Positions 37,952-61,938 of a DNA stretch of 64,000 nucleotides are shown in pieces. This DNA comes from Psychrobacillus sp. FSL H8-0483 (GTDB lineage Bacteria; Bacillota; Bacilli; Bacillales_A; Planococcaceae): positions 1,471,501-1,535,500 of the forward strand of contig NZ_CP152052.1 of NCBI RefSeq assembly GCF_038637725.1, given 5' to 3'. The notes under the pieces were generated by a model, which ran no database searches, was not told where the DNA came from, and worked only from the letters and a program-made list of their open reading frames with translations. How positions within the stretch are numbered: position 1 is the first letter of the stretch; the number at the start of each line of letters is the position of its first letter. Position numbers and translations under genes: made by a program.

Positions 37952-39295
37952 GTGAATAAAATGGGCAAGTTTACAAAAGAAGATATTAAAAAGTTCGTTC
38001 AAGAACACGAGGTGAATTTTATTCGTCTTCAGTTTACAGACATACTAGGTACGATTAAAAACGTAGAAATTCCAGTGAGTCAGCTCGACAAAGCTCTCGA
38101 TAATAAAATGATGTTCGACGGATCTTCTATTGAAGGATTTGTTCGAATTGAAGAATCTGATATGTACTTAGTTCCAGATTTAAATACATGGGTTGTATTC
38201 CCTTGGATTACAGGTAAAGGGAAAGTTGCTCGTCTAATCTGTGACGTAAATAAAGCGGACGGAACTCCATTTGCAGGAGATCCACGCAGTAACTTGAAAC
38301 GTGTGTTAAAACAAATGGAAGAATTAGGATTTACAAGCTTCAACTTAGGGCCAGAGCCTGAATTCTTCTTATTTAAATTAGATGCACAAGGTGAACCAAC
38401 GCTTGAACTAAATGACCACGGTGGTTATTTTGACTTAGCGCCAGTCGATCTTGGTGAAAACTGTCGTCGTGATATCGTGCTTGAGCTAGAAGAAATGGGC
38501 TTTGAAATTGAAGCATCTCACCATGAAGTAGCTCCAGGTCAACACGAAATCGACTTTAAATATGCGGATGCAATCACTGCTTGTGACAACATCCAAACAT
38601 TCAAATTAGTAGTAAAAACAATCGCTCGTAAACATGGTTTACACGCAACATTCATGCCAAAACCACTGTTTGGCGTAAATGGTTCAGGAATGCACTTTAA
38701 CGTTTCTTTATTTAATGGAAAAGAAAATGCATTCTTCGATGAATCAGCTGACCTACAATTAAGCGAAACAGCTATGCAATTTATGGCTGGAGTATTAAAA
38801 CATGTTCAAAGCTTTACAGCAATTACAAATCCTTTAGTAAATTCATACAAACGCCTTGTTCCTGGTTATGAAGCACCTTGCTACGTTGCTTGGTCTGGTC
38901 AAAACAGAAGTCCATTAATTCGAATTCCTTCTTCAAGAGGATTAAGTACACGTATCGAAGTTCGTTCTGTTGACCCAGCTGCAAATCCATACCTTGCAAT
39001 GGCTGTAATTCTACAAGCTGGTCTAGATGGTATCAAAAATAAATTAACACCACCACCAGCAGTTGATCGCAACATTTATGTGATGACAGAAGAAGAACGT
39101 AATGAAAATGGTATTTACAACTTACCACCAACATTATTTGCAGCTATTCAAGAGCTTGGTAAGAGCCCAATAATCCGCGAATCACTAGGGGAGCATATCT
39201 ATGCTAACTTTGTAGAAGCAAAAGAGATCGAATGGGATATGTTTAGAACAACTGTTCACCCATGGGAACGTGAACAATACTTGAAAATGTATTAA
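37952..39295 (+). CDS. glnA: Glutamine synthetase type I
   Basis: Makes glutamine from glutamate, ammonia and ATP. The 447-residue length is that of the I-alpha form found in Bacillus, which lacks the adenylylation insert. FDGSSIEGF, the GPEPEFF metal site and [13 protein letters not shown] are present. The last 16 codons ([16 protein letters not shown]) overlap the attachment site of the integrative elements: the same codons, with synonymous changes, recur at 44409 and 48116. The tail present now was therefore probably brought in by an element. Confidence 0.96.
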
Positions 39296-39296
39296 T
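39248..39296 (+). other. Attachment site 1 (in the glnA 3' end)
   Basis: 49 bases from ACAACTG to ATTAAT recur at 44409-44457 and 48116-48164. The last glnA codons are within the shared core, and integrase remnants follow each copy. The crossover point inside the core is not known. Confidence 0.8.
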
Positions 39297-39604
39297 CTTG
39301 ATTTAACAGGGTTTATGCACCAGTTTTATGGGGTGTTATAAGTGGAAGAATTCTTAAAAATTATTCGCACCCCAATTTCACCCCAAAAAATAGGTAAAAA
39401 AATATTACTTGAAAACATCGTTCAGTCGTGAGTTGACTCGATCGGTGTTTTTCTTTTTTATTTTCTTGGAAACATGGTCGTATACGTCTGCTGTTATTTG
39501 ATAACTACCATGACCCAACTGCTTTTGGATATACTTGATATCTGTCTCTGCTTCCATCAATAAAACTACATATGTGTGGCGTAAAGAATGTATAGGTAAG
39601 GCTT
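39248..39604. repeat. Direct repeat, first copy (attachment core plus integrase end)
   Basis: This 357-bp stretch matches 48116-48471 with about eight differences and one 1-bp deletion by eye. It covers the glnA tail, a non-coding strip and the 3' part of an integrase gene. The two copies lie 8.87 kb apart in the same orientation. Confidence 0.85.
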
Positions 39605-39614
39605 TATTACGCAA
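39405..39614 (-). pseudogene. Tyrosine recombinase, C-terminal fragment (unit 1)
   Basis: About 69 residues of the catalytic domain remain: HSLRHTYVVLL with the Arg, LGHGSYQITADVYDH with the His and the nucleophile Tyr. The N-terminal and core parts are lost just upstream of 39614. It points toward glnA and ends 109 bases from the glnA stop, the usual place of an integrase beside its attachment site. Confidence 0.8.
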
Positions 39615-39727
39615 ATCACCTTTTTCACATTGAGGAGATTCGTTTGTGGTTATCGCAATATTTACCCCTTCTCGTGCTATTTCAAAATGAATGCAATAAT
39701 CCCTTTCTAATTGAAAGGGATCTGCAA

Positions 39728-39758
39728 AAAAGCATCATCTCTTAGGAGGTGATGCTTT
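39728..39758. terminator. Hairpin AAAGCATCA..TGATGCTTT
   Basis: Arms 39728-39740 and 39746-39758 pair; TTTCC follows. It may be a leftover terminator of a lost gene. Confidence 0.4.
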
Positions 39759-39856
39759 CCTATTGAATTAATAATGGGAGTTTCCATGTCGTGACATGCA
39801 CTGGATAAAAGCCATTGGTTTCACACGTTATTGATAGTCAGGGTGATAATACAACA

Positions 39857-39963
39857 TGTAAACAGTGGAATTTAAAAAAGATGACTCCGGCACAGTACCG
39901 AAGATCGCAACGTAAGCTGCAAGGTTTCTTTTATTAAACTGTCCTAATATAAGGGCTCAGTTC
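39857..39963 (+). mobile_element. IS3-family remnant (end of transposase and right end)
   Basis: The frame at 39857-39937 reads CKQWNLKKMTPAQYR and stops soon after, the usual end of an IS3/IS150 OrfB. ACTGTCC followed by AAGGGCTCAG just after the stop looks like the IS right end. The rest of the IS is gone. It fills part of the gap between glnA and the ger operon; nothing else in 39964-40256 is recognisable. Confidence 0.6.
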
Positions 39964-40256
39964 ATTTTAGAGATGACCGTTTTTTTATGCGATTATCTTT
40001 TTTGCTAAAACACTCATTCTTCTTCAAAATTATGGGTACGTAAGGGAGTGAATCCTGCTTGAGATAGTGAGTAAATTTAAATTTTGTCCTTCCATTTGTT
40101 TTATGGATCGCCTTTGATTTCTTGGGTGGTTAAGGGTGTGCCTCTGCATCTTATTAATTTAGTTTCGTATATTTTAAACTTAAAAAGAGAACAATGGAAT
40201 TAATATGGAATTTTACCGTTCTTCCAAAAATGCTTTTTTACATATAGAGGTGAGGG

Positions 40257-41738
40257 ATGTACATGTTTGGGAAAAAACAATCAAATGAAAATAAGCCTGT
40301 TTCTCAATCAAACGCAGAATCAGAATTATCAATAGAAGCTCTAAAAAAAGCCCTCGTTCAAATGGATGATGCGGAATTTGTGGAAATCAACATTTCTGAA
40401 AATCAAAATGTTGATCTTATCTACGTAAGAACCCTGATTGACCAAGAAAGATTAAATGAAAGCATTGTAAAACCTTTATCTAACTGTTCCAAACAATCCA
40501 TTCAGGAATGCAATGTTCACTCAACAATAAACTCCATTTCCACTTTTAAAGAGGCAAAAAAGCAGCTGTTTAAAGGATCAGTCTTGTTATTTGACTCTTC
40601 ATCAAACCTTTGGTTCGCTATCCCTTTAAAAAATCCACTTGGACGTGCAATTGAACCATCCGATACTGAAACCATCCTTTTAGGAGCAAAAGACAGCTTC
40701 AGTGAACAGCTAGAACAAAATATTACGCTCATTCGTAGACGTCTTCCAACACATGATCTGAAAACAGAGAAGTTCACCGTTGGTTCTTTAAGTGAGACAA
40801 ATGTGGTCTTATTGTACATAGAAGGGCTGACCAATCCAGAATTTGTTTCAACCGCCAAAAAGAAGATTTCGGAAATTAATTATGATCTCTTCTTTGATTC
40901 TTCTCAAGTAGCGGCATTCATGGAGGAACATCAAGATAGTATTTTTCCTCAGTTTCAGCAAACTGACCGACCTGATGTTGTTGCTTATTCTCTGGGATTA
41001 GGAAAAATTACGATTCTGGTAGACAATACACCTTTTGCTCTCGTTGCCCCAATTACTATTTTTCATTTGTTCCAATCACCAGAGGATTATATTAATCGAT
41101 GGGTAGTTGCCAGTTTTTTGCGCATCATCCGATATGTAAGTTTTATTCTGTCTATCACATTGATCCCATTCTACGTGGCATTAACAACTCATCACTATCA
41201 AATGATTCCTTTACAAACACTTTTCGTCTTGGTGGAGTCAAGGAGCAAGCTTCCGTTCACTCCTTTTTGGGAAGCATTTATCATGTTGATTTTTATTGAG
41301 ATTATAAAAGAAGCAAGTTTAAGGATGCCAACAAAGACTGGTCAAACGCTTGGGGTTATTGGGGGCATTGTAATTGGTCAAGCAGCAGTTGAGGCTGGTT
41401 TGGCAAGTAAGGTGTTAATTGTCATGGTAGGGATTTCAACTATCGGATCCTTTCTTGTTCCTAATTACCTTGTGACAAAGGCGAATTCATTGATTCAATT
41501 CATTCTTCTTGTATTTTCTTCGTTTCTTGGGATAGTAGGGATTGTTCTGGCAATGATTATCATTTTAGCCCACCTTAATGGCTTGTCTTCACTCAAGCAG
41601 CCATATTTATCCCCTGTTGCCCCTTTCTACGGAAAAGATTGGCTTGACCTATTCATTCGAGGGCCTTTAGTCAAAATGAAGGAGCGTCCAGAACATCTTA
41701 AACCGCTGAAGATGAAGAGATATCCAACTAGGAGATGA
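40257..41738 (+). CDS. Spore germination receptor subunit A (GerA family)
   Basis: A 493-residue GerXA protein of a nutrient germination receptor in the spore inner membrane. The hydrophilic N-terminal domain (about 240 residues) contains VDLIYVRTLIDQERLNESIV; the C-terminal part has about five membrane segments with EIIKEASLRMPTKTGQTLG. The ATG at 40263 has better spacing from GAGGTGAGGG than 40257, and both are possible. It heads a gerXA-XB-XC operon with 4-base and overlapping junctions. The nutrient cannot be told. It lies between two glnA-tail copies, so it is probably mobile cargo. Confidence 0.92.
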   Translation: MYMFGKKQSNENKPVSQSNAESELSIEALKKALVQMDDAEFVEINISENQNVDLIYVRTLIDQERLNESIVKPLSNCSKQSIQECNVHSTINSISTFKEAKKQLFKGSVLLFDSSSNLWFAIPLKNPLGRAIEPSDTETILLGAKDSFSEQLEQNITLIRRRLPTHDLKTEKFTVGSLSETNVVLLYIEGLTNPEFVSTAKKKISEINYDLFFDSSQVAAFMEEHQDSIFPQFQQTDRPDVVAYSLGLGKITILVDNTPFALVAPITIFHLFQSPEDYINRWVVASFLRIIRYVSFILSITLIPFYVALTTHHYQMIPLQTLFVLVESRSKLPFTPFWEAFIMLIFIEIIKEASLRMPTKTGQTLGVIGGIVIGQAAVEAGLASKVLIVMVGISTIGSFLVPNYLVTKANSLIQFILLVFSSFLGIVGIVLAMIIILAHLNGLSSLKQPYLSPVAPFYGKDWLDLFIRGPLVKMKERPEHLKPLKMKRYPTRR

Positions 41739-41742
41739 ACTG

Positions 41743-42885
41743 ATGGTAGCCCTTCAATTATTTAATAAGAATGAAACCTATAATGGGTTCTATGTCATGT
41801 TGATGGTAAATCGCCTCCAAATGCTTTACTTTTTTTTGATTATGCCAAGGTTTTTGATCCATTCATATATGATTTGGGTGATTATAGCGGTCGGCATATT
41901 GTCTCAACTAAACATTCTTCTTATATCCAAATGGTTTTTAACCCGGTTTTCTAGCGAAGGATACAACGGATTTGTCCAATTATTCGGAAAAAAACTTGTA
42001 CGTCTCCTCTCATTCATCGGGTTGTTCTTTATACTGCTTAAACTTTTCGTGATTATGTTAGGATTCTCGGAAATGATTCAAATATTTATGTTTCCAGCTA
42101 CAGATTCAAATTGGCTTATCTTTTTTATTCTGTTGTCTTGTTTGTATGTAGCATGGAAGGGCGTTGAAAAAACTATACGTTTTGTCGTGATTTCATTTTT
42201 GTGTACATTTTGGATGTTCTTATTCTTTGCTTTTTTCTTCTTTCCTCCAATAGCTCAACTCACCGATTTGTATCCGATTATTCCAATGGAATTAAGCGGG
42301 GATTCCTGGAAAGGAATATTTTTAATTTTATCTTCATTTTCAGGGCCTGAATTTCTGGTATTTTTGGGACCGTGGTTTAAAACAAATAATAAGACATTTC
42401 GCTATTTGTCTTATGGCAATGCTCTAACCGTTATAGAGTATGTATCCTTATATATGGCGTCCTTATTCTATTTCGGTTCCAATTATTTAAGCAAAGGTCA
42501 ATTTCCAATTGTCACTATGGCCCGTTATTTTCAAAATCCAATAATTGAACGTATTGATATGGTCATGCTTTCTTTGGAATTATTTAACATCGTCTTTGCG
42601 GTTTCAATTTTTCTACTGTTGTTTTATGGAGCATCTAAAATAGCTAATGGGAAAATGGAGAGTCCACCCAGTCGAGTAGGCTTTTTATTCAGTGTATTCA
42701 TTATTTTAATTGGAATGATTCTTGTGAATGAATGGATTTGGAAGTCAGATGAAAAGCAGGTTATTTTACTTAATCTTCAAATTTTAGCAGGAAGCTTAAG
42801 TTACTTAGTGGTTCCAATTATTATTATCGTAGTGATGAAGATAAAGGGGGTTAATAAACATGAGACTACGAAAGAAGATGGCTAA
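41743..42885 (+). CDS. Spore germination receptor subunit B (GerB family)
   Basis: A 380-residue permease-like protein of the amino acid/polyamine/organocation group, with ten predicted membrane helices, the nutrient-binding subunit of Ger receptors. SYGNALTVIEYVSLYMASL and GPEFLVFLGPWFKT fit the family. It starts 4 bases after the gerXA stop and overlaps gerXC by 26 bases. Confidence 0.9.
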   Translation: MVALQLFNKNETYNGFYVMLMVNRLQMLYFFLIMPRFLIHSYMIWVIIAVGILSQLNILLISKWFLTRFSSEGYNGFVQLFGKKLVRLLSFIGLFFILLKLFVIMLGFSEMIQIFMFPATDSNWLIFFILLSCLYVAWKGVEKTIRFVVISFLCTFWMFLFFAFFFFPPIAQLTDLYPIIPMELSGDSWKGIFLILSSFSGPEFLVFLGPWFKTNNKTFRYLSYGNALTVIEYVSLYMASLFYFGSNYLSKGQFPIVTMARYFQNPIIERIDMVMLSLELFNIVFAVSIFLLLFYGASKIANGKMESPPSRVGFLFSVFIILIGMILVNEWIWKSDEKQVILLNLQILAGSLSYLVVPIIIIVVMKIKGVNKHETTKEDG

Positions 42886-43954
42886 AAAATTGTCAATCAT
42901 ATTTATGGCATTATGGTTAACTGGATGTGCCCCTTTTACTGAAAATAACATTATTGAAGAGCTTGCTCCAGTCACATTTTTATCACTTAGTAAAGGGGAT
43001 GAAGGTAAAATAAAAATCAGTACGATTTTGGCTCCTCTAAGCAAAGAAAAAAAGAGTGTAATGACGCAAGAAGTAAGCTTAATAAAGGAGGGATTAAGGA
43101 ATTTTAATTTAAACTTCTACCAGGAAATGAAATCTGGGCAAATGCGAATGCTGATAATTAATGAAGACCTCGGAAAAGAGGGGATTATGTCCATTATTAA
43201 TGTGTTATTGACTGATCCGGATATTTCTTTGAGAATCTATTTAGTTATCGTAAAAGGAAATTTTGAAGAATACTTGGAAAATCAATTGGACAAACAAGAA
43301 AATCTTGATTACTCTTTTTACCGAATGCTGAAGCACTATGAGGAAAAAAATCAGGGAGAATTAAGTGTCGTTAATCTACATGAATTTAAAAATTTGTTAT
43401 ATACTCCTTATTCAGATCCTTTCTTACCTGTATTCAAAATAGAAAATGACGCTATCAGCTATGAAGGTACAGCCCTGTTTCAAAATGATAAACTAGTTGA
43501 AATAATAACAACTTTTTATGATCGTATCTTCCAGCTGTTAAACAACAATCACTACTTAGCAGTTTTACCGATCCCAGAGTTAGAGGTTGTTCTAGGTCAT
43601 GTTAGGTCTAAAACGAAAGTGGATATCAATAAAAGCTTGTCTACTATGACCTATACAGTGAATATAGACTCAAGAATTGAAGAATACCGGGGAGAAAAGC
43701 AATTATTTGACCCAAAGGATTTAGAAGATTTGAAAAAAGATATCCAATCCAATCTTGAAAAACAAACACAAGAACTAGTAAAAAAGATGCAAGAATTGAA
43801 TGTGGATCCATTACAGCTAGGCATTCATACATTAAAACCATTCTCAAAACCAATGGATGAAAAAAAATGGATTAAAATTTTCGAGAAGATGGAAATTAAG
43901 ATTGATTATCAGTTTAATATTGAGCCTTTGACGGATTCAAACGCAAAAAGTTAA
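42860..43954 (+). CDS. Spore germination receptor subunit C (GerC family lipoprotein)
   Basis: A 364-residue lipoprotein with lipobox LTGC (Cys about 23), the third Ger receptor subunit on the outer face of the inner membrane. The C-terminal domain holds DRIFQLLNNNHYLAVLPI and ELNVDPLQLGIHTLKPFSK, as in other GerC proteins. AAAGGGGG lies 10 bases before the ATG. Complete in length. Confidence 0.9.
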   Translation: MRLRKKMAKKLSIIFMALWLTGCAPFTENNIIEELAPVTFLSLSKGDEGKIKISTILAPLSKEKKSVMTQEVSLIKEGLRNFNLNFYQEMKSGQMRMLIINEDLGKEGIMSIINVLLTDPDISLRIYLVIVKGNFEEYLENQLDKQENLDYSFYRMLKHYEEKNQGELSVVNLHEFKNLLYTPYSDPFLPVFKIENDAISYEGTALFQNDKLVEIITTFYDRIFQLLNNNHYLAVLPIPELEVVLGHVRSKTKVDINKSLSTMTYTVNIDSRIEEYRGEKQLFDPKDLEDLKKDIQSNLEKQTQELVKKMQELNVDPLQLGIHTLKPFSKPMDEKKWIKIFEKMEIKIDYQFNIEPLTDSNAKS

Positions 43955-44130
43955 TTAAGGTGACATTTGTATAATTACATATCCTAAACCAGCGTTGAAT
44001 ATGGTTTTCCATGCTTTTTCGGAGTTTCCTAGCATGAAAAAGAATGCGCCACCTATCATAATGACACTTGCTATTGGAAAACTAATCGCTACATGATTTG
44101 AACTAGTGGGTCTAATACAAATGCAAAACA
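43955..44130 (-). pseudogene. Fragment of a small membrane protein, possibly a VirB2/TrbC-like conjugation pilin
   Basis: The minus-strand frame ends with SFPIASVIMIGGAFFFMLG, then NSEKAWKTIFNAGLGYVIIQ. The start of the same gene seems to continue in another frame as FAFVLDPLVQIM, so there is a frameshift near 44095. Two hydrophobic helices and this ending resemble the small pilin-like proteins of Gram-positive conjugative elements. This is a guess from pattern; only about 55 residues remain. Confidence 0.35.
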
Positions 44131-44175
44131 CATAAAGAAGACCACTCTTTGTAAGCGGCCCTCTTTATGTGTTTT
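44125..44175. terminator. Hairpin after the ger operon region
   Basis: A 14-bp perfect stem (44125-44138 / 44162-44175) ends in TTTT and starts with AAAA, so it can act in both directions. Confidence 0.7.
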
Positions 44176-44408
44176 ATTGTTAATTAACAATTACTTCATT
44201 TACAGCTACTAGGTAATGACAAAGTTCTTCAGGCGCTATATTTTATATGGAATCAATAGTATAATTTTCACCCCACAAACACCCCATGAATACCCCGTTT
44301 GCTAAGACAAAACATGAAATCATATAATAAACTAAATTTACGATAACCTATATATATAGGTTTATTTGTACTGAATGACACCCAAAAACAGGTCGGTATA
44401 TCATCCGC

Positions 44409-44457
44409 ACAACTGTTCACCCATGGGAACGCGAACAATATCTAAAAATGTATTAAT
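44409..44457 (+). other. Attachment site 2 (glnA tail copy)
   Basis: Encodes the same last 16 codons as glnA plus stop, with synonymous changes AGA to CGC, CGT to CGC, TAC to TAT and TTG to CTA. It is not preceded by the rest of glnA. It marks the right end of unit 1 and the left end of unit 2. Confidence 0.85.
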
Positions 44458-44460
44458 AGT

Positions 44461-44495
44461 AAAGCGTTGGGGCTCTAGGCTTCCAACGCTTTTTC
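44461..44495 (+). terminator. Terminator directly after glnA tail copy 2
   Basis: A 10-bp perfect stem AAAGCGTTGG / CCAACGCTTT (44461-44470 / 44483-44492) runs into a T-rich tract 4 bases after the tail's stop region. It is the kind of terminator expected behind a working glnA. Confidence 0.88.
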
Positions 44496-44542
44496 TTTCG
44501 TTTCTTTTTCTCATTTTTGGGCAAGTATTTAGATTTGCCCAA

Positions 44543-44800
44543 TTATTTTACAAGAGATTTCATAAAATCATTAAATTGATCCATTGATTTTTGTTCATAG
44601 CTTTCCGAAATATGTGAGTAAATATCAGAAGTTGTTTTCATAGATTCATGCCCAAGACGTTCTTGTATCACTTTCATGGACCAACCAGCCTCTAACAACA
44701 TGACTGCATGTGTATGACGTGTTGAATGGATTGGCAAAGATTCGACACCTAGATGCTCCATAGCAGCTTTAAGAGTGTGTATTTTTAAAGTCAAAACCAC
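44543..44800 (-). pseudogene. Tyrosine recombinase, C-terminal fragment (unit 2, different type)
   Basis: The fragment keeps LPIHSTRHTHAVMLLEAG (catalytic Arg), LGHESM and TSDIYSHIS (nucleophile Tyr). It differs clearly from the unit 1 and 3 integrases, so unit 2 comes from a different but related element using the same site. The first 12 or so codons look unrelated and mark the truncation point. Confidence 0.78.
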
Positions 44801-44959
44801 TGGAATATTTTTCCTGATACATAAAAATAAGTATACTCGATATTTTTTTCAATATATATGGTTTAAGTCACAGTACGACCAAACGTTGCCGTAGACACAT
44901 ATTATGTACTAAGAAAATTAAAAAGGGCAATCAAATATAGATTGCCCGTAGAATTATTA

Positions 44960-45469
44960 TTATTTATCTGGAAAGTCTACATGTAGTGGTGGAGGAACAA
45001 GCCAACCTTTACTTTTATTCAATCGTAACAATTTGGCACCTAGTTGAGCTTTATTCAGATGGAATTGACCATACATTAAACCGATATCTTCTCTAATGGA
45101 CATTCCCATAGCTTTGCTGCAAGCAACTAAACCTGCAGCTACATTCATTGAAAGTGAAGCGCTGATTTCAGGATCGTAAAATCTTGCACCAGGTGGAATG
45201 TCCTCTAATCTTGCTTCCGGACGTTCAGGTGGTGCGGGAGGAAGCGCGACTCCATTTACTTTTAATATCTTTTCTAATTGCTTATTTTCGTCTTTCATAC
45301 TGTAAATAAATTCTTCAATTAGTTTTTGTAAATCTTGGTCACCAGTGTGATTAAAAAACGTTTGATATGCAGCAATCAATCCATTGTTTGTTGCCAGATT
45401 TGTCCAGATTCCGAACACTTCACCATAATGTAAAGGTTCATCTTTTGGGTTTCCAGTTAGTATTCCCAT
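44960..45469 (-). CDS. DUF3231 family protein (CotF/ferritin-like)
   Basis: The frame is open from 45568, but the ATG at 45469 with GGGAGTG before it gives the normal family start MGILTGNPKDEPLHYGEVFG. The 169-residue protein is one DUF3231 domain, an all-helical fold often linked to spore coat or ferritin-like proteins in Bacillales. A Pro-rich strip (PPAPPERPEARLEDIPPG) divides two helical halves. The function is unknown. It is cargo of unit 2. Confidence 0.75.
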   Translation of the reverse strand: MGILTGNPKDEPLHYGEVFGIWTNLATNNGLIAAYQTFFNHTGDQDLQKLIEEFIYSMKDENKQLEKILKVNGVALPPAPPERPEARLEDIPPGARFYDPEISASLSMNVAAGLVACSKAMGMSIREDIGLMYGQFHLNKAQLGAKLLRLNKSKGWLVPPPLHVDFPDK

Positions 45470-45632
45470 TATTGCACTCCCTAACAATTCATAATTTTTC
45501 ATACAAGGACTAGGATGTGCGGAGTATAAAAGATTATTCATTTGTATGGGAAATTTAAGAAACAGCAAAGTTTAAATTCGTAATTCGTATGTAAAGTGAC
45601 ACATTAATCGAAGTAAGGAGTGAATTTGGAGA

Positions 45633-45827
45633 ATGGAAAAATGTTACCAATGTGATAATGGATGTAAAGAAATTCACTGAATTAAAGTCATAGATGAATG
45701 TGGAAAATTAACTATTGAAAATGTATGTAGTGAGGAATATGGAGAAGAAGTGCGACAAGAGATGTATCACTTACATTTTAATCGAGCAAATGAAGTAAAT
45801 AATCAGGTATTTCAAAGACTCAAGTAG
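45633..45827 (+). pseudogene. Small Cys-containing protein with an in-frame TGA
   Basis: A 64-codon frame begins MEKCYQCDNGCKEIH, meets TGA at 45678-45680 and continues to TAG at 45825 with normal-looking codons (VCSEEYGEEVRQEMYHLHF). GGAG lies near the ATG. A single point stop in an otherwise intact small gene is the simplest reading. Confidence 0.5.
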
Positions 45828-46094
45828 TGAAGTGATTCACAGTACGCCCATAATGCGAACTGCAATTTTAAATTGTATATAAATAGATAAAAATTAAATT
45901 GGATATCTCACCACTTTTATTATCAAGCTAATCATTATCAAATCGGAGCTTTTTAATACTTGTAAAAGGGTGAGAAATTGAGGACAAGATTGCAGAAAAT
46001 GAAACAAGAGGATGGAAGCAAATAAGTGACATAAAAGAAGACTATGGGAAATTTCAAGTATTTCTTAAGTTTGATGCGATAAGGAGGCTCTAAG

Positions 46095-46285
46095 ATGGGC
46101 AAGAACATTACGTTTGAAGTTACTGAAAATATTCACTGGGACAATTGGGGAAGGCTTATAGTGGTTTTTTCCCAAGGTCAAATATGTGAAGGTACACTAC
46201 ATGAAGACGGAACAGTTACAGCGGAAAGTCCGTATTATGAGACGTCTCTGACTATGTTGATTTAGATAGTATTAATATTTTATAA
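46095..46285 (+). pseudogene. Small conserved-looking protein with a late frameshift
   Basis: AAGGAGG precedes the ATG at 46095. The frame MGKNITFEVTENIHWDNWGR to ESPYYE is regular, then a shift near 46245 leads to an early stop at 46265; the other frame reads VSDYVDLDSINIL and stops at 46285, the likely natural ending. Function unknown. Confidence 0.5.
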
Positions 46286-46309
46286 CGACATAGTTCGACC
46301 AAAGTCTTT

Positions 46310-46850
46310 GAAGAGGCTGAAATAGAGAGGTTCATAGAAATGTGGGAGTATGGTTATAGCGTCTTATCAATCTATTATGTATTAAATCGAATTCCCTTGG
46401 AAATTGGATTACTTGCAATGGATAGAGCCGAAACTGGGTTTATAGATCAAAGAAAACTCGGAATCAATGGAAGACTACGACAAATACAGGTAATGCTTAT
46501 GCCGTCACATTAGACCTTGCACCAATTGAATATAAAAATGGTATGGGCTTAGTTTTAACAATTAATGCAGAAGCACAGCAGCTGCAACAGTCAGTGTAAA
46601 TGGACTTGAATAGGTATCTATCGAAAAGAAAGAGGATTTCAAATTGGAATTTTCAAGTCCGACATTAAAAAAAGAAACCGAAACATCCTTGCTCAGTAAA
46701 TCACATCGTCAAATTATTATAGATGCAGCTGTAAAAGAAGGAGCAAATAAAGAATAGCCTGACAAACTAGAAAATAAGACGATCGGACGCTGGTGTAATA
46801 GGGTTAGCGGTTAAGTATACAATTGCGGGTGGGGGCTTTTTTATTTTAGT
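46310..46850 (+). other. Prophage debris
   Basis: Short broken frames: EEAEIERFIEMWEYGYSVLS (helix-turn-helix-like), then AVTLDLAPIEYKNGMGLVL, like a phage structural repeat protein, and HRQIIIDAAVKEGANKE from 46687. The 46687-46840 part is a diverged duplicate of 57508-57655. Nothing here is an intact gene. Confidence 0.5.
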
Positions 46851-46929
46851 AAAAAAATTATAATGTATAGTTCGATTAGATTATGACAATAACTAGCTTG
46901 TAACAACAACTCAAAGGAGGTACTACAAT

Positions 46930-47148
46930 ATGAAAAAATTACTAGGACTTTTTCTTGTATTTTTGATCGCTTTTTCATTTACTGAATCTACCTATGCTAC
47001 ACCCAATACCACTACAAACAATACTCCTGACACTGACACTAACACAACTTCCGATATGGATGACGACGATGATACTGATTGGGGCTGGATAGGATTATTA
47101 GGGTTAGCGGGATTGTTAGGATTACGCAGAAGAGAAGAAATTAAGTAA
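46930..47148 (+). CDS. Small secreted WGxxGxxG-type protein
   Basis: A 72-residue protein with a signal peptide (about residues 1-23), a low-complexity Thr/Asn stretch, a run of six acidic residues, and a C-terminal WGWIGLLGLAGLLGLRRRE. The last part is a Trp-Gly motif, one membrane helix and an Arg cluster, as in the WGxxGxxG-CTERM family of Bacillus, presumably a membrane-anchoring or sorting signal. AAAGGAGG precedes the ATG. The role is not known. A terminator follows, so it is an independent gene. Confidence 0.8.
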   Translation: MKKLLGLFLVFLIAFSFTESTYATPNTTTNNTPDTDTNTTSDMDDDDDTDWGWIGLLGLAGLLGLRRREEIK

Positions 47149-47159
47149 GTAATATGATA

Positions 47160-47199
47160 AAAAAAGCGACCTCTTCTTAATTAGATTGGTCGTTTTTTT
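47160..47199 (+). terminator. Terminator of the WGxxGxxG gene
   Basis: GCGACC (47166-47171) pairs with GGTCGT (47188-47193); A run before and T run after. Confidence 0.7.
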
Positions 47200-47281
47200 A
47201 TTTGCCCAAAAGGAGTTGTACAAATCGATGTCGAATTGTGGTAATAAAAGGAGCTGGTTGAATTAATAATCTATTTTTAGT

Positions 47282-47488
47282 GTGCTTGAACCAAGTATAG
47301 AGCTAATAAAAGCACATATATATTCATTAGCTAAGTACATAATTATCGTTATCTTATTTGGAGCAATAGGATATTATATCACGTCCTATACTGGATTGAG
47401 AGAAATTAGAGTATTTGTAGCTTCTGCTCTTTATTTTTTGTATTGGTACTTTTTTATTTATTTGTTTCTACCTAACCTTAATAGCTAA
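47282..47488 (+). CDS. Small membrane protein, unknown
   Basis: A 68-residue frame from GTG with two predicted membrane helices (YIIIVILFGAIGYYI and ASALYFLYWYFFIYLFL). The ribosome site is weak; AAAGGAG at about 47248 is too far. A clean terminator just after the stop supports a real gene. No family recognised. Confidence 0.5.
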   Translation: MLEPSIELIKAHIYSLAKYIIIVILFGAIGYYITSYTGLREIRVFVASALYFLYWYFFIYLFLPNLNS

Positions 47489-47490
47489 GG

Positions 47491-47526
47491 AAAAAGCACC
47501 CTATCTTTGGAATGGGTGCTTTTTTT
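47491..47526 (+). terminator. Terminator of small membrane protein gene
   Basis: AAAAAGCACCC pairs with GGGTGCTTTTTT (to 47526). Confidence 0.85.
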
Positions 47527-47603
47527 ATTTGTCCAAAAATTAATAATTATTATTAGTTGTAAAATCAATCTAATGTTCTTTTATTATATAAAAAAGGGGG
47601 AGG

Positions 47604-47858
47604 TTAAAATATTTTTTTTAGATCTCGTTCATCCTTTAGTAGTTCAACTGCTTCTCGGAAGCGAAGAGAGTGAATATTTTCTCTTTCTCTTAAAAAAGCT
47701 AAAGCATCATTAATACCTGGGTCGTCTGAAATATCGATTAACCATTGATATGTTGCGCGTGCCTTTTCTTCTGCTGCGATATCTTCATACAAATCCGCAA
47801 TAGGGTCACCTTTAGATTGGATAAATGTCGCTGTAAACGGAACACCACAAAAGCTTTT
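47604..47858 (-). pseudogene. CotJC-like manganese catalase, C-terminal fragment
   Basis: The frame reads GVPFTATFIQSKGDPIADLY, then EDIAAEEKARATYQWLIDIS and ends RERENIHSLRFREAVELLK plus a natural stop. These are the metal-binding helices of the Mn-catalase-like spore coat protein CotJC. The N-terminal half is missing beyond about 47858, with no start. A coat gene has decayed here. Confidence 0.75.
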
Positions 47859-48115
47859 GATGCTCAGTGGACAATCTATTTTAAAATTATTGTTTTAAAT
47901 AAATATTGGAAAAGATTAATTTAAAATCAGTTACAATATAATTGACCACAGAAAGTTTTTAGGGTGCCCAACTCATACAAAAGGAGTTGCCCAATTTTTG
48001 CCCAATTTTGTCTAATATGTAGTGATTAATAGTGACAATGAGATTACCAATTTAACTATTTAATGAGGTTTATGACGTTTAAATACGGGTTAAAATGTGT
48101 ACGTATAGAATCCGC

Positions 48116-48164
48116 ACAACTGTTCACCCATGGGAACGTGAGCAATACTTGAAAATGTATTAAT
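48116..48164 (+). other. Attachment site 3 (glnA tail copy)
   Basis: Repeats the last codons of glnA with GAA to GAG and AGA to CGC as synonymous changes. Copies 2 and 3 also share ATCCGC just before the core. It marks the end of unit 2 and the start of unit 3. No fourth copy was found up to 64 kb. Confidence 0.85.
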
Positions 48165-48471
48165 CTTGATTTAACAGGGTTTATGCACCAGTTTTATGGG
48201 GTGTTATAAGTGGAAGAATTCTTAAAAATTATTCGCACCCCAATTTCACCCCAGAAAATAGGTAAGAAAATATTATTTGAAAACATCGTTCAGTCGTGAG
48301 TTGACTCGATCGGTGTTTTTCTTTTTTATTTTCTTGGAAACATGGGCGTATACGTCTGCTGTTATTTGATAACTACCATGACCCAACTGCTTTTGGATAT
48401 ACTTGATGTCTGTCTCTCTTCCATCAATAAAACTACATATGTGTGGCGTAAAGAATGTATAGGCAAGGCTT
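48116..48471. repeat. Direct repeat, second copy
   Basis: Partner of 39248-39604, about 98 percent alike by eye, with a 1-bp deletion near 48420 that shifts the integrase frame. Confidence 0.85.
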
Positions 48472-48745
48472 AGCTCTTTTTAGAATACGTTCAAGCGCAT
48501 TAAAGAGGGTTGATTTTGGCATTGGTTCCCCATCTTTTCTACAAAGCGCTAAATTGAGATCATTGACGATAGACGTCGTTTAATATAAGTTTGTTTTGAT
48601 TTTGAAAGTTTAGATGCGCTTTTAATGCACTTGCTGTCGTATCAGCCATTTCAATAACTCGTGATTTGCGATTCTTTGTATCTCCAAACAAATCATCTTC
48701 TTCGCTTGGTTGAAAGTCAAGACTCTTATTAATGCTAATTGTCAT
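48273..48745 (-). pseudogene. Tyrosine recombinase, decayed (unit 3)
   Basis: A longer remnant than in unit 1. From 48745 down it reads SRVIEMADTTASALKAHLNF and NQNKLILNDVYRQ, then, after a stop and a shift, RKDGEPMPKSTLFNALERIL, and then the HSLRHT-type catalytic end shared with unit 1. At least two frameshifts and one stop, so it is dead. The layout is that of ICE/phage integrases. Confidence 0.78.
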
Positions 48746-49201: not shown

Positions 49202-49219
49202 ATAATTGTATACAATTAT
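49202..49219. promoter_or_regulatory. Palindromic operator overlapping -10 of the GntR gene
   Basis: ATAATTGTATACAATTAT is a perfect 18-bp palindrome with the TTGTATACAA core typical of FCD-type GntR operators. The -10 TATAAT (49201-49206) lies within it, so autorepression is likely. Confidence 0.7.
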
Positions 49220-49238
49220 TTTAAAGGCGGTGAACCAG

Positions 49239-49916
49239 TTGAATGAAAGAGCAAAAGTCAGTCGAGTCTCTACGAAAGATATTGCACATAAAGCGTTGAG
49301 AGAAATGATCATCAAAGGTGAACTGGAACCGGGTCAACCAATTGCGGAGGAAGAGTTAGCCAAAGAGCTACAGATCAGTCGAACCCCTCTTAGAGAAGCT
49401 CTTCAGATCTTGGAACTGGAAGGATTGGTCAATCGCAGTTTAAACGGCCGTATGAATGTGGCGCCGATTTCGATCCAAGAAGTGAAAGAAATATTTGTTA
49501 TCCGTAGCAACTTGGAAGGGATTGTCGTTGAAGATGCCATTGATAATATCACGCAAAAGGACATTGACCACTTAACCCATCTCATCAAATTACTCAAAAT
49601 GGCGATAAGCCTGGAAGATTATGAGACAATCGATCGATTTGGTAAGCAATTCCACGAATACATTTACACGGTGAGTGGCAACAAGATAGCGGTCAAGTTC
49701 TTGTATCAGCTCAACAGCATGATCAACCGGTACAGGCGATTGGCACACAAAAGTATTGGCGATACAAAACGATCCGTAAAAGAACATAAGATGATCCTTC
49801 ATTACATCATCCAAAAAGACAAGATCAACGCAGTAGAAGAAATGAAGAAACATATTTTAGGTTCGTTGAATCAAGCCATCAAGACGGTCGAAAAATACGA
49901 ACATACCCAATTCTAA
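49239..49916 (+). CDS. GntR-family regulator with FCD domain
   Basis: A 225-residue repressor: winged helix (about residues 10-75, with SRTPLREALQILELEGLV) and an all-helical FCD ligand domain with the metal-binding type pattern KEHKMILHYI. The start is TTG 49239 with AAGGCGGTGA 6 bases upstream; the frame is open further back but only across the operator. It stands 57 bases before an opine dehydrogenase gene and probably controls the whole cassette to 54248. The ligand may be an opine or amino acid; this is inference. Confidence 0.85.
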   Translation: MNERAKVSRVSTKDIAHKALREMIIKGELEPGQPIAEEELAKELQISRTPLREALQILELEGLVNRSLNGRMNVAPISIQEVKEIFVIRSNLEGIVVEDAIDNITQKDIDHLTHLIKLLKMAISLEDYETIDRFGKQFHEYIYTVSGNKIAVKFLYQLNSMINRYRRLAHKSIGDTKRSVKEHKMILHYIIQKDKINAVEEMKKHILGSLNQAIKTVEKYEHTQF

Positions 49917-49973
49917 CAAGAGAAAGGTACAGATTGAAATAGATTGCGAACCATATGAGAGGAGGAAGAGTTC

Positions 49974-51011
49974 ATGACATATGCAGTAATGGGCGGTGGA
50001 AATACAGGGCAGGCCATTGCAGGATATCTGAAATTGAACGGAGAAAGCGTGAAATTGTATACCCGTGATCCACAGAAAGCTGAAAGAATTTCTACACAAG
50101 GGTTGGAAGTGAAAGGGATCTATTCGGGGCACGTCGATTTAGAGGCATCGACCACCATAGATCAGGTAATTGCAGAGGCCCAGTTTATCATTGTATCGAC
50201 GACGGCTATGGGGCATGAGACGATTGTCAATCAAATTAAACCGTTCTTGCAACCCAATCAAACCATCATCTTTTTTCCAGGCTACTGGGGTGCACTAGAA
50301 TGTGAACGAATTCTGGGTACTGATTTGATTACAGAAAAGAACATTACAGTGGCCGAAACGAGTGCCATGCCTTTTGTCAGTTTGGCCGATCAAGCCGGTT
50401 CTGTTGCGATCACTAAAATTAAATACAACGTACTAATTAGTACGTTGCGTAAAGAGAACCAGATTGCTCCATCGTTTATGGAAAGGTTTCCGCAATTGAT
50501 TCCGGGAGAAAGTGTATTTGAGACTTCCTTAAATAATTCCAATGTGGTGATTCATCCTCCGATCACCCTGTTTAACGCAGCAAGGATTGACGCATCCGAG
50601 AGATTTCAGTTCTATCCTGACGGAGCATCTCCCTATTCCTGTAACTACGTAGAAAAGATGGATAAAGAACGACTGGAAATAGCAAGTCGTCTACATGTCG
50701 ATCTTCAAAGTATTTTGAGTATCTTGAATGAATTTTATGATTCCGATTATCCCACGTTATATGAAGCTTTGCCTGGCTTGTTCCCTACTGGATTAGGTCC
50801 TACGACACTCGATTATAGGTATCTGACAGAAGACATTCCTTTTGGACTTGTTCCGATTTCAGAATTAGGGAAAATCTTAGGGTTGGCAACACCGTATACC
50901 GACTCCATCATCAGCACGGCATCTTTACTTATGAACAGCGACTATAGGCAAGTAGGGATTCGCTTTCAGGGGCTGACCGAGGAGAATCTACGGCGGATGT
51001 CCATGGTATAG
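49974..51011 (+). CDS. NAD(P)-dependent opine dehydrogenase family protein
   Basis: A 345-residue enzyme of the octopine/nopaline dehydrogenase family. The Rossmann motif GGGNTGQAIAGYL is at residues 7-19, and the C-terminal domain has SNVVIHPPITLFNAARI, which carries the family's catalytic-type His. Such enzymes join or split an amino acid and a keto acid through the amino nitrogen. GAGGAGG is upstream of the ATG. The next gene is an amino-acid ABC transporter, so uptake and breakdown of an opine is one reading and synthesis the other. Confidence 0.85.
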   Translation: MTYAVMGGGNTGQAIAGYLKLNGESVKLYTRDPQKAERISTQGLEVKGIYSGHVDLEASTTIDQVIAEAQFIIVSTTAMGHETIVNQIKPFLQPNQTIIFFPGYWGALECERILGTDLITEKNITVAETSAMPFVSLADQAGSVAITKIKYNVLISTLRKENQIAPSFMERFPQLIPGESVFETSLNNSNVVIHPPITLFNAARIDASERFQFYPDGASPYSCNYVEKMDKERLEIASRLHVDLQSILSILNEFYDSDYPTLYEALPGLFPTGLGPTTLDYRYLTEDIPFGLVPISELGKILGLATPYTDSIISTASLLMNSDYRQVGIRFQGLTEENLRRMSMV

Positions 51012-51054
51012 CACATATAGGATTTGAAATAAAGCACTTGGGGAGGTAGAGATT

Positions 51055-51825
51055 ATCTTACACGTTAAAAACTTGCATGTTTCATACAACCAAAAAGAAG
51101 TGTTGAAAGGTATTAACCTATCGGTCGAAAAAGGCGAGGTTGTATCGTTTATTGGTCCGAGTGGAACAGGGAAAACCACCTTATTAAAATGCATCAATTA
51201 CTTAGAAAAACCCCAACAGGGCGAAATTCAAATCGGGGATCTGCATCTCAATTATCAAAGTTTATCCAAGCAAGACACCCTAAAGCTTCGCAGGAAAACT
51301 GCCATGGTGTTCCAGATGTTCAACATTTTCAAACATAAGACGGTCATCCAAAATGTAATGGATGCTCAAATAGCCGTTCAGAAAAAGTCCAAAAACGAAG
51401 CGTATGCCATGAGTTTGAAACAATTAGAAAAGGTAGGTCTTAAAGATAAAATAAATGAATATCCCTCTCGCTTATCGGGAGGACAATTACAAAGGGTCGG
51501 CATTGCACGTGGCTTGGCGCTTGAACCCGAGTTGATTTTGTTTGATGAACCTACTTCAGCTCTTGATCCCGAATTAGTAGAGGAGGTATTGAAAGTAATA
51601 GAAGATGTAGCAAAGTCCGGCATGACAACGCTTCTTGTCACCCATGAAATGGACTTCGCCAAGCGGATTTCCGACAAAGTGGTCTTTATGGAAAATGGTC
51701 ACATTGTGGAAGTGGGAACGCCTGAACAAATCTTCGAGAAATCAGTGAATGTGAGAACAAGGCAGTTTTTGAAAAAGATCTATGCAGAGCAAGACCAACA
51801 AAAATTAAACATTAAGGGTGGTTGA
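51055..51825 (+). CDS. Polar amino acid ABC transporter ATP-binding protein
   Basis: A GlnQ-like ATPase with Walker A GPSGTGKTTLLKC, signature LSGGQLQRVGIARGLA, Walker B LILFDEPTSALDPE and switch His in VTHEM. No ATG, GTG or TTG lies at the family's usual start. The ribosome site GGGAGG (51041-51046) faces ATT (51052) and ATC (51055), and alignment with GlnQ proteins puts the start at ATC or ATT; otherwise the TTG at 51073 would cut the first beta strand (ILHVKNL). The end overlaps the receptor gene region. Confidence 0.85.
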   Translation: MLHVKNLHVSYNQKEVLKGINLSVEKGEVVSFIGPSGTGKTTLLKCINYLEKPQQGEIQIGDLHLNYQSLSKQDTLKLRRKTAMVFQMFNIFKHKTVIQNVMDAQIAVQKKSKNEAYAMSLKQLEKVGLKDKINEYPSRLSGGQLQRVGIARGLALEPELILFDEPTSALDPELVEEVLKVIEDVAKSGMTTLLVTHEMDFAKRISDKVVFMENGHIVEVGTPEQIFEKSVNVRTRQFLKKIYAEQDQQKLNIKGG

Positions 51826-51830
51826 TGAGA

Positions 51831-52664
51831 ATGAAGAAAAAGTCAATTTTAGTAGCAGCTTCTGTACTGGGTTTATCTCTCCTTACTGCATGCAATTCCA
51901 CTGACAACAAGTCACAAGCTGAGAGCACTGGGGATTCAGGTGTAAGAACAATCAAAGTGGCGACTGGCCACACGTCAAAACCATTGAGCTGGGTCGATGA
52001 GAACGGCGAAGTGACGGGTTATGAGCCTGAGCTGATAAAAGAACTGGATAAAGTGCTTGAAGACTATGAATTTGAATTGTTCGGTGTGGAAGATTCAGCG
52101 GGTGAAACAGGACTAGCTACTGGAAAGTACGACATGTTGGCAGGTGGTCTAGGGTTCACGGAGGAACGTGCAGAGCAATATATCATTCCTTCAGAATCGA
52201 GTGGTCGTGCCCTGATCAAGATTTACGTGGCAGAAGATAGTGGAATTGAGAGCATTCAAGATTTGGTAGGGAAGAAAATTTCTCCTCTATCCCCAGCGGG
52301 TGCTACATATAAAACCGTTAAGAATTGGGAAGAAGAAAATCCTGAATTTAAGCTGGAGTATGATTTGGCTGATGTGGGAATTCCAATCGCAGATCGACTA
52401 AAAGAAGTGGCGAGTGGCAAATATGATGCGTTGTTCTATCCATCGAGTTACGGACAAATCGAAATCATTGAAGATCAAAATCTACCTGTTGTGGGATTGG
52501 ACCCAGTCAAAATTATTCCTACGTTCTTTATGATTCACAAATCAGAGGAAAATGAGGAACTGAAACAAGCCATCGATGAAGGTCTAAAGGAATTGGCAGA
52601 AGCAGGCGTGCTTTCTGAGTTGTCTACTGAATTCTACGCAGAAGATGTGTTTCAATACGATTGA
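51831..52664 (+). CDS. Amino acid ABC transporter substrate-binding lipoprotein
   Basis: A 277-residue family-3 solute receptor with signal MKKKSILVAASVLGLSLLTAC (lipobox LTAC). TGHTSKPLSWVDENGEVTGY followed by EPELIKEL and the late DPVKIIPTFFMIHKSEENEE segment fit polar amino acid receptors. The ATG at 51831 has the best distance from AAGGGTGG; 51825 is also possible. The binding pocket is not clear enough to tell the ligand; an opine fits the context. Confidence 0.85.
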   Translation: MKKKSILVAASVLGLSLLTACNSTDNKSQAESTGDSGVRTIKVATGHTSKPLSWVDENGEVTGYEPELIKELDKVLEDYEFELFGVEDSAGETGLATGKYDMLAGGLGFTEERAEQYIIPSESSGRALIKIYVAEDSGIESIQDLVGKKISPLSPAGATYKTVKNWEEENPEFKLEYDLADVGIPIADRLKEVASGKYDALFYPSSYGQIEIIEDQNLPVVGLDPVKIIPTFFMIHKSEENEELKQAIDEGLKELAEAGVLSELSTEFYAEDVFQYD

Positions 52665-52734
52665 GGCTTTTACATGAACGTCTTGGTTCGAGTCAGATAA
52701 GGTCATAGTGAATATCTCCGGATCGACTAGAGCA

Positions 52735-57165: not shown

Positions 57166-57411
57166 ATGGGTGAAGAATTAATAAGAAATATTAGGGAGCG
57201 ACTAAGCGGTATCAAAGCGAAGATTGATTATATTCGAGACATCCGCATTACAGCAGAAAGAGCACAGGATACTGCTGACAAGGTGCCAGAAAGTACCAAG
57301 AGCGCTCATAATCGCTTGGACAAAATAGACAAAATTATATGGTGGGTATCTACTACGATCATTGCGGCCGTCATTTTGGCTCTATTGGCATTGGTAATTA
57401 AAACAAACTAG
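57166..57411 (+). CDS. XhlA-like phage lysis protein
   Basis: An 81-residue protein: coiled amphipathic part (IRERLSGIKAKIDYIRDIRI) and one C-terminal membrane helix (WWVSTTIIAAVILALLALVI), the haemolysin XhlA pattern. XhlA works with a holin to release the phage endolysin. GGGGGTGCGG is upstream. A holin-like start follows at 57420 but is broken. Confidence 0.75.
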   Translation: MGEELIRNIRERLSGIKAKIDYIRDIRITAERAQDTADKVPESTKSAHNRLDKIDKIIWWVSTTIIAAVILALLALVIKTN

Positions 57412-59415: not shown

Positions 59416-59541
59416 GTGCGTAAAAGAAATTTGAATGTATTGGAATATGTGCAAATTGCTAAAATGATCTACATGAAAAACAGTGGTGAAATTAGTAAAG
59501 GGCGAGTAAAGGTGTTGAAACATCGTCCATTCATGAGTTGA
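59416..59541 (+). pseudogene. Truncated copy of the 61337 gene joined to integrase DNA
   Basis: Reads MRKRNLNVLEYVQIAKMIYM, then KNSGEISKGRVKVL, like the first half of the 61337 protein, then runs into the reverse of an integrase gene and stops. Confidence 0.65.
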
Positions 59542-59806
59542 CTCATACGGTGTTTTTCTTTTTTATTTTGCTTGAAGCATGGGCATAAACGTCAGCGGTT
59601 ATTTGGTAGCTAAAATGCCCAATTGTTTTTGGATATACTTCATATAGGTTTCTGCTTCCATCAATAAAACTACATAAGTATGACGTAATGATGGATTGGA
59701 AAGGTTTTAATTTCAGCTCTTTTAACGATACATTCAAATGTTTTAAATAGAAGTCCCTGTTAAAATTTCTTCGCCCGGCATCGCGCTTGAACCAAAGTAA
59801 AGGCAT
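59517..59806 (-). pseudogene. Tyrosine recombinase remnant (fourth)
   Basis: The end SYQITADVYAHASSKIKKKN is like the unit 1 and 3 integrases, but the part before it is badly shifted. No glnA tail lies next to it, unlike the other three remnants. Confidence 0.65.
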
Positions 59807-61336: not shown

Positions 61337-61558
61337 GTGCGTATAAACATTTTAAAAATATTAGAACATGATCAAATTGCTGAAATGATCTATATGAAAA
61401 ACAATGGTGAAATTACTAAAAGGCGAATAAAGGTATTAAGCGTAACAGAGGATTCATTCAAGGCTTACTGTTTTTTACGTAGTACAAAGCGGACTTTTAA
61501 AATAGATAACGTACTCGCATTTGTTCCTGTAATTAAGAAGGAGCGTGCAGTAATATGA
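61337..61558 (+). CDS. Small WYL-like protein of a YolD cassette
   Basis: A 73-residue protein from GTG with AAAGGAGG 8 bases before it. AEMIYMKNNGEITKRRIKVL is followed by YCFLRSTKRTFKIDNVLAF, the strand order of WYL-type small proteins often found before yolD. It overlaps the yolD-like gene by 4 bases. A truncated copy is at 59416. The usual uvrX polymerase gene of such cassettes is not seen. Confidence 0.65.
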   Translation: MRINILKILEHDQIAEMIYMKNNGEITKRRIKVLSVTEDSFKAYCFLRSTKRTFKIDNVLAFVPVIKKERAVI

Positions 61559-61938
61559 TTAGCAACACAGAATTTAATGAACTATTTGCAACGGTATACG
61601 AATCAGCAAAGTTAAAACATCGTGATGACAAGTGGGGTATGTCGATGATGTTGCCAGAGCATGTTGAGATGCTGAGGAATTATTATGATGAACAAAAGAA
61701 AGTACCTCGTCCAGAGCTAAACGAATGGGATTTAGAGATCTTACAAATAAGCCTAGAAAATGCAATGAAAAGTAAAGCAGATACAAAAATAAAATTGTGG
61801 AAAGATGGAGAGTTTTATTATAATAGGGGCATTATAGAGAGTGTGGATTTTACTAGAAGAACTATCGAATTACAGGATCCATTTTGTTTGTTGTCAATAA
61901 ATTTAGAGGAAATAGTTGATGTAACAATTGTGGAATAA
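61555..61938 (+). CDS. YolD-like protein
   Basis: A 127-residue YolD-family protein; DDKWGMSMMLPEHVEMLRNY is the family hallmark. YolD proteins go with Y-family polymerase UvrX in SOS operons and are thought to be UmuD-like helpers. It starts inside the stop of the gene before it, with GAAGGAG upstream. The polymerase partner is missing here. Confidence 0.8.
   Translation: MISNTEFNELFATVYESAKLKHRDDKWGMSMMLPEHVEMLRNYYDEQKKVPRPELNEWDLEILQISLENAMKSKADTKIKLWKDGEFYYNRGIIESVDFTRRTIELQDPFCLLSINLEEIVDVTIVE

Follow-up and report, generated by a model that had tools for sequence, protein, structure and literature searches.

Probable repeated phage-type integration at the 3' end of glnA in Psychrobacillus sp. 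FSL H8-0483 and the likely use of this attachment site across Bacillales

The region downstream of glnA, the gene for a type I glutamine synthetase, was analysed in a stretch of 64,000 nucleotides (nt) from Psychrobacillus sp. FSL H8-0483 (assembly GCF_038637725.1, contig NZ_CP152052.1, positions 1,471,501–1,535,500 of the forward strand), referred to as the window, in whose numbering all positions are given. We conclude, with a probability of about 0.94, that a widespread clade of tyrosine integrases from Bacillales temperate phages uses the 3' end of glnA as its attachment site and that the window holds a stack of decayed elements of this kind. As part of this explanation, the array would comprise at least two two-ended elements (A and B), a truncated third element (C) and a fourth integrase remnant (D), as listed in Table 1. 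Repeated site-specific integration at the glnA 3' end is strongly supported by sequence comparison, through the pairing of arm motifs within the array, intact prophages at the same site in related genomes, the tie between an integrase clade and glnA, and phage-form records that carry the gene end. Compared genomes and loci are identified by handles beginning with G and L, respectively.

Tail copies, integrase remnants and arm motifs

The glnA protein is 93–96% identical to its counterpart in 15 of the 18 genus relatives; G001 and G004 gave partial matches, and G003 carries a 93% identical glnA (L208) together with a 77% identical paralogue. A 23-bp core, ACAACTGTTCACCCATGGGAACG, was found in exactly three copies in the window, all on the plus strand, at 39248, 44409 and 48116 (up to three mismatches allowed), with none expected by chance (100 shuffles). 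A 22-bp version of the core, searched with the same tolerance, returned only these three sites in the whole 4.14-Mb genome. The core is imperfectly palindromic, a property that the codons alone impose to a large extent. Each copy belongs to a tail (T1, T2 and T3) made of the final 16 codons and stop of glnA, in one orientation and with an identical peptide. The original prediction, made by reading the sequence, had claimed both this threefold same-direction occurrence and the purely synonymous character of the differences, and both claims were borne out: the copy at 44409 differs from glnA's own end in four codons and that at 48116 in two. A fourth tail was not found, the next-best match over a 50-nt window having 28/50 identities.

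The tails differ in what follows them. The terminator-like hairpin behind T2 belongs to a type that also follows glnA in G004 and in several further relatives, as well as the phage-borne tails of G036, G104, G130 and G141; some phages therefore seem to carry the glnA terminator besides the coding end. T1 and T3 lack such a hairpin and resemble P. faecigallinarum, whose right arm likewise has the motif CACCCCA. Two integrase lineages appear to have used the glnA site in this genome.

Decayed tyrosine-integrase remnants (A, B and C) were identified ~90–120 bp after T1, T2 and T3. They lie on the minus strand, and their 3' ends therefore face the tails, close to the arrangement typical of the clade described below (integrase ~100–200 bp from the tail, 3' end facing it). 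This agrees with the earlier claim of a tyrosine recombinase remnant beside each tail and pointing at glnA; the first two remnants have Pfam matches and the third has a broken frame. The fourth remnant, D, was added in the present analysis; it adjoins no tail, and on the side where the other remnants face one, its flanking DNA shows 81% similarity to positions 61284–61437. Remnant A is 77% identical over 65 amino acids (aa) to the intact integrase of P. faecigallinarum, and remnant B is 51% identical over 93 aa to that of G130. None of the four remnants is intact. Tyrosine recombinases have the catalytic signature R-H-R-H-Y, and the residues R213, H329, R332, H355 and Y365 are invariant in eight intact relatives; the window remnants keep the C-terminal part only. 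The best integrase match of this genome in the profile search falls outside the glnA clade (26% identical to the G036 integrase), with no glnA end in its 4-kb locus.

Short motifs flank the tails in pairs. In the 64-kb window, CACCCCA sites within 25 bp of each other occur only at 39368/39379 (after T1), 44269/44280 (before T2) and 48236/48247 (after T3), and TGCCCAA sites at this spacing only at 44517/44536 (after T2) and 47965/47988/47999 (before T3). If a tail is a junction, the DNA to its left derives from the preceding element and the DNA to its right from the following one. The pairing of the motifs therefore places element A between T1 and T2 (5.2 kb, CACCCCA at both ends), element B between T2 and T3 (3.7 kb, TGCCCAA at both ends) and the beginning of element C at T3. 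Element C is truncated and its far end is lost; accordingly, a tail copy at both ends was found for A (T1/T2) and B (T2/T3), and not for C or D. Elements A and C are near-twins (97.8% identity over 357 bp), and B is of a different type. The crossover would have taken place within the block common to all three tails, probably in the 23-bp core. The 447-aa glnA open reading frame (ORF) is uninterrupted and keeps the conserved end peptide, the target gene being intact after insertion.

Table 1. Features of the glnA-proximal array and its surroundings (window numbering; a dot denotes no strand)
Feature	Position	Strand	Basis
glnA, type I glutamine synthetase; 3' end is the predicted attachment site	37952..39295	+	447-aa ORF
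Tail T1 in glnA; predicted hybrid attachment site (left part host, right part element A)	39248..39295	+	exact core, three copies
Right arm of element A, CACCCCA sites (39329 -, 39368 +, 39379 +)	39329..39385	.	motif pairs
Integrase remnant A, C-terminal part only	39405..39614	-	Pfam PF00589 Phage_integrase, E 5e-8
3.8-kb block with three-gene spore germination receptor operon, inside element A	40131..43957	+	genes 40257-41738, 41743-42885, 42860-43954
Left arm of element A, two CACCCCA sites 11 bp apart, before T2	44269..44286	+	motif pairs
Tail T2; predicted junction of element A (left) and element B (right)	44409..44456	+	core, three copies; flank comparison
Terminator-like hairpin after T2	44461..44492	+	type shared with the glnA ends of several relatives and with phage-borne tails
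Right arm of element B, TGCCCAA sites	44517..44542	.	motif pairs
Integrase remnant B, C-terminal part	44543..44830	-	ORF 44543-44800, PF00589 E 1e-12
DUF3231 protein, inside element B	44960..45568	-	PF11553 E 7e-39
Short remnant	46687..46826	+	85% identical over 143 bp to 57501-57642, beside holin/XhlA-like gene
Manganese catalase gene fragment, inside element B	47604..47792	-	PF05067 positions 143-198
Left arm of element B, three TGCCCAA sites, before T3	47965..48005	+	motif pairs
Tail T3; predicted junction of element B (left) and element C (right)	48116..48163	+	core, three copies; flank comparison
Right arm of element C, CACCCCA sites	48197..48253	.	motif listing
Integrase remnant C, frame-broken	48282..48742	-	tblastn to G130 integrase: 37% over 116 aa and 48% over 44 aa
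Holin/XhlA-like phage lysis protein	57166..57411	+	PHROG 689 holin E 4e-12; PF10779 E 1e-7, under curated cut-off
Integrase remnant D, no tail adjoining	59518..59750	-	82% identical to remnant A over 194 bp
YolD-like protein	61555..61938	+	PF08863 E 8e-20; phrog_3352, function unknown

Use of the glnA end in relatives, phages and an integrase clade

A near-empty site, the comparison that the original prediction had called for, was found in G004. In this relative, the glnA tail lies only 0.4 kb from the next conserved gene, one of the 99-aa type, after which come an ATP-binding cassette (ABC) transporter and lexA, and integrase homology is absent within 1.5 kb of the tail. In the window genome, similarity to G004 resumes only at ~65.64 kb, beyond the window end, and the disturbed region spans 39.3–65.6 kb; about 26 kb have therefore piled up between glnA and lexA. 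Within the genus, integrase homology within 1.5 kb of the glnA tail was observed in 12 of the 19 Psychrobacillus genomes, the window's included (a first integrase query gave traces in 7 of the 18 relatives, and a closer query gave 11 of the 18 in addition to the window). G003 entered this census through its 77% identical paralogue; the 1.3 kb that follow the 93% identical glnA of this genome are free of integrase homology, and the count therefore stands. Separately, a second terminator-like hairpin resembling the glnA terminator lies ~180 bp after the glnA tail of G004 (L082) and is possibly an old insertion scar.

A degenerate search for the codons of HPWEREQY over 261 genomes of the family (Planococcaceae) matched 116 genomes, 20 of them with two or more matches; drifted tails are missed by the pattern, and the count is therefore a lower bound. 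Thirteen multi-match genomes (G003, G019, G020, G021, G023, G024, G026, G079, G233, G234, G239, G240 and G256) were dropped because the inspected copies lie in open frames of 436–551 codons or in full-length glnA. A non-genic extra tail was identified in seven genomes (G000, G036, G095, G104, G121, G130 and G141), and in all of these except G121 a clade integrase, intact or remnant, directly follows glnA. Several relatives were also seen to possess more than one full glnA gene (two or three), each ending in the HPWEREQY peptide (G003 L208 and L081; loci L209–L221 of genus g2), with no integrase homology in the 16 loci of such relatives examined.

In G036, G104, G130 and G141, an intact integrase of 377–388 aa lies directly after glnA, and the distance from tail to tail is 41.3, 48.7, 42.2 and 50.0 kb, respectively. 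The interval in G036 encodes a terminase large subunit, portal, head protease, major head protein, Dit, holin and endolysin. Among the chosen ORFs scanned in the other three, a terminase large subunit, a portal and a minor head protein were identified in each, along with a tape measure protein in G104. Both the proposed search for DNA between glnA and a second tail and that for intact integrases beside glnA were thus productive, yielding intact 41–50 kb prophages in four of the seven extra-tail genomes. When the two ends of each prophage are compared, the block that they share begins 16–17 codons before the gene end and reaches approximately to the stop codon; on either side of it the flanks are different. 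In G036, the present glnA tail stops with TAA and the displaced tail with TAG; in G130, a tyrosine codon is TAT in the glnA tail and TAC in the displaced one; G104 and G141 show no difference between their two ends in the coding part right of the core. The tail swap is thus visible in two of the four intact elements. Arm motifs were recognized by eye at both ends of all four: TGTCCAC in G036, TGCCCCA in G130 (once on the far, attR, side, with near-variants) and TTGCCCAA in G141 and G104.

The gene end is also present in phage-form sequences. Phage SPbetaL5 (GenBank OQ921345.1) carries a glnA end of 18 aa beside a clade-type integrase, with no glnA upstream, as expected of a phage attachment site (attP), and with the motif TGGTCA on both sides (by eye). 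It is the sole Bacillus record among six glnA-end matches in 50,697 phage records, the other five being unannotated Listeria records of 5–7 kb. When viral contigs were scanned for the tail, 28 stretches matched. In one contig of 44.8 kb, the tail lies inside a 99-bp terminal repeat, as in a circular genome, and is adjoined by an intact integrase. Another, IMGVR_UViG_2728368993_000001 (114.8 kb; L060, L061, L070 and L071), contains a full glnA frame and three partial tails with the same peptide and different codons, and integrase homology follows three of its four tails; it is an independent tandem array resembling that of the window.

Eight intact integrases were aligned, and the alignment served to search 84,980 species, each represented by one genome. 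The search matched 210 stretches, of which 161 encoded relatives, and the best 80 of the 161 were kept; a glnA end was judged by motif or by tblastn with a 30-aa glnA-end query, genus names come from the titles of the records, and some genomes contribute two loci (for example L118 and L177). At 76 of the 80 loci, a glnA end lies 101–202 bp (median 126) from the integrase end. These loci represent 28 Bacillales genera, spanning Paenibacillus and Brevibacillus to Halobacillus and Bacillus, and among the 76 ends, those of L155, L161 and L176 are degenerate or paralogue-like. As for the other four loci, L113 has its glnA end 1,575 bp away, L144 reaches a contig edge 133 bp after the integrase, and L111 and L147 show no recognisable tail. 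The 80 loci were selected by similarity to glnA-site integrases, and the tie to glnA is therefore shown for this clade and not for related integrases at large. Within the family, a glnA end adjoins 12 of the 13 strongest integrase matches, the thirteenth being cut by a contig edge, and none of the ten weaker matches checked has a glnA end within its 4-kb locus.

Proposed mechanism and alternative explanations

In the mechanism that we propose, the phage attachment site would carry the last 16–17 codons and stop of glnA, sometimes with a glnA-like terminator, and the integrase gene would adjoin this phage tail, facing it. Recombination in the shared block would fuse the upstream part of the host glnA with the phage tail, so that glutamine synthetase stays intact, and the old host tail would be displaced to the far end of the element. 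Later phages would reuse the same site, so that elements pile up in tandem; the native tail of the window genome would have been lost by deletion. A broader proposal, which we regard as tentative and give somewhat less than even chances, is that the C-terminal codons, stop and terminator of glnA form a phage-delivered module across Bacillales that is replaced at each round of integration, so that the glnA end would evolve partly in phage genomes and pass between species.

Several observations weigh against repeated phage integration as the origin of the array. The arm motifs were picked by eye after reading the sequence, and the paired-motif comparison is therefore descriptive and carries no formal P value. 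The sharing of 7-mers between arms does not decide the matter: the left arm in front of T2 has 12 in common with the right arms of A and C and 2 with that of B (background for the A and C right arms: 95% = 9 and 8, 99% = 45 and 42), and the left arm before T3 shares 6 with each right arm. No native displaced tail is left in the window array; for this reason, of the original claim that an element brings a replacement gene end from another host, the other-host origin is no more than plausible for the window, and the replacement is seen in two of the four intact prophages. In G121 (L041), no integrase trace accompanies an extra tail that lies, together with a terminator, 2.3 kb downstream of glnA. 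An extra tail in a genome that lacks an integrase near glnA had been named in advance as evidence to the contrary, and G121 fits that description; the other six extra-tail genomes do not. Finally, capsid, terminase and tail genes were not found among the scanned ORFs of elements A–C.

This last point, together with the shortness of A and B and the truncation of C, means that the elements might have been small islands. They would then be satellite islands or integrative mobilizable elements, A and B never having been much over 3.7–5.2 kb, as the short distances between paired arms and the predominance of the germination operon in A would suggest. We consider this unlikely, as all four intact site users examined in the family measure 41–50 kb and have terminase and portal genes, the tail is carried by a 127-kb phage and by the terminally redundant 44.8-kb viral contig, and a lysis-type gene and a related remnant lie within the array. 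The phage nature of A–D is thus suggested by intact relatives and by the lysis-type and YolD-type genes of the hotspot, rather than by structural genes in A–C.

Ordinary recombination could also have copied a segment with the glnA end twice, carrying integrase pieces along, and the 97.8% identity of T1 and T3 with their remnants is what such a local tandem duplication would leave. The left sides of T2 and T3, however, do not continue into glnA and carry a flank, ATCCGCACA, that intact prophages also have at their distal ends. The arms, terminator and integrase of T2 are unlike those of T1 and T3, and remnants A and C are cut at different points. Local duplication had been put forward in advance as a possible refutation; the foreign left flanks contradict it, and we regard it as very improbable. 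A slimmer chance still is given to the view that the germination operon, which adjoins glnA here, is its native neighbour and that the elements inserted around it. Blocks 94–97% identical at the nt level stand at other places in 3 of the 18 genus relatives (G002, G008 and G015, with a remnant in G001; L204, L205, L206 and L207), with flanks not shared with this site beyond ~70 bp, and the gene order of the relatives runs from glnA towards lexA without the operon (within 6–19 kb per relative). Stacked integration of phage-type elements remains by far the preferred explanation.

Cargo genes, significance and known systems

The operon inside element A is of the GerA type (Pfam GerA, Spore_permease and Spore_GerAC) and may have come as phage cargo or been added later. 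By eye, the blocks of G008 and G015 share flanks, those of the window, G002 and G001 share the ~70 bp extra on the left, and no terminal repeats were seen at the block edges. As a side observation, this set of near-identical blocks at other places in three Psychrobacillus genomes, two of them with common flanks, looks like an operon recently relocated or moved horizontally. Elsewhere in the hotspot, positions 49206–54248 encode a GntR-type regulator, an octopine/nopaline-dehydrogenase-like enzyme and an amino-acid ABC transporter; counterparts of the transporter genes downstream of glnA in relatives are only 26–53% identical. A gene for a PepSY-associated membrane protein (57738–59117) lies between phage-type remnants.

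Taken as an attachment site, glnA would be a highly conserved metabolic gene in heavy use, as the 12 of 19 Psychrobacillus genomes and the 28 genera of the integrase clade indicate. It would supply a large bacterial order with a set of integrases and a landing site that can be predicted, explain the variable region between glnA and lexA, and make gene-end replacement by phages traceable through synonymous marks.

Protein genes with integration at the 3' end include icd, trmE and rlmH, and the carrying or restoring of a gene end, as well as modular or tandem stacking, are known features of gene-restoring elements. Elements at guaA, bacA, icd, trmE and rlmH are like the present ones in lying at the 3' end of a conserved gene and unlike them in their target genes. 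Islands at guaA are named as 3'-end integration elements (PMC12016501), the PAISt element is placed at bacA (PMC4057263) and trmE is given as an integration target (PMC8409611).

Among phages, SPbetaL5 shares with the present elements the last glnA codons and stop beside an integrase, here 42% identical to that of G130. It differs in being a 127-kb Spbetavirus record with B. subtilis BEST7003 as host and an integrase annotated as 'hypothetical protein', and its integration at glnA is a prediction. The tyrosine integrases of Geobacillus phages GBSV1 and phiOH2 are 35% identical to the G130 integrase, but no glnA end was found in their records by peptide search.

Our literature search found one report of prophages at glnA, and a paper on the integration loci of SPbeta relatives may already describe this gene; a mention of 'glutamine synthetase gene' in an SPbeta review proved to be a cited cloning paper and was set aside. 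The report concerns Macrococcus, in which two prophages of 47–49 kb lie downstream of glnA (PMC12016501), so the site itself is not unreported, which weakens part of the original prediction, whose author knew of no described glnA-tail family with this tail swap. These prophages are comparable in their site, and their integrase genes are unlike those of phages that otherwise resemble them. They are set apart by their Macrococcus host; the main text of that report names glnA a single time, and the passages concerned give no tail copy, tail swap or tandem array for glnA. Integration that restores the 3' end of a protein gene is a familiar phenomenon, and the glnA case is a widespread, little-described member of this group.

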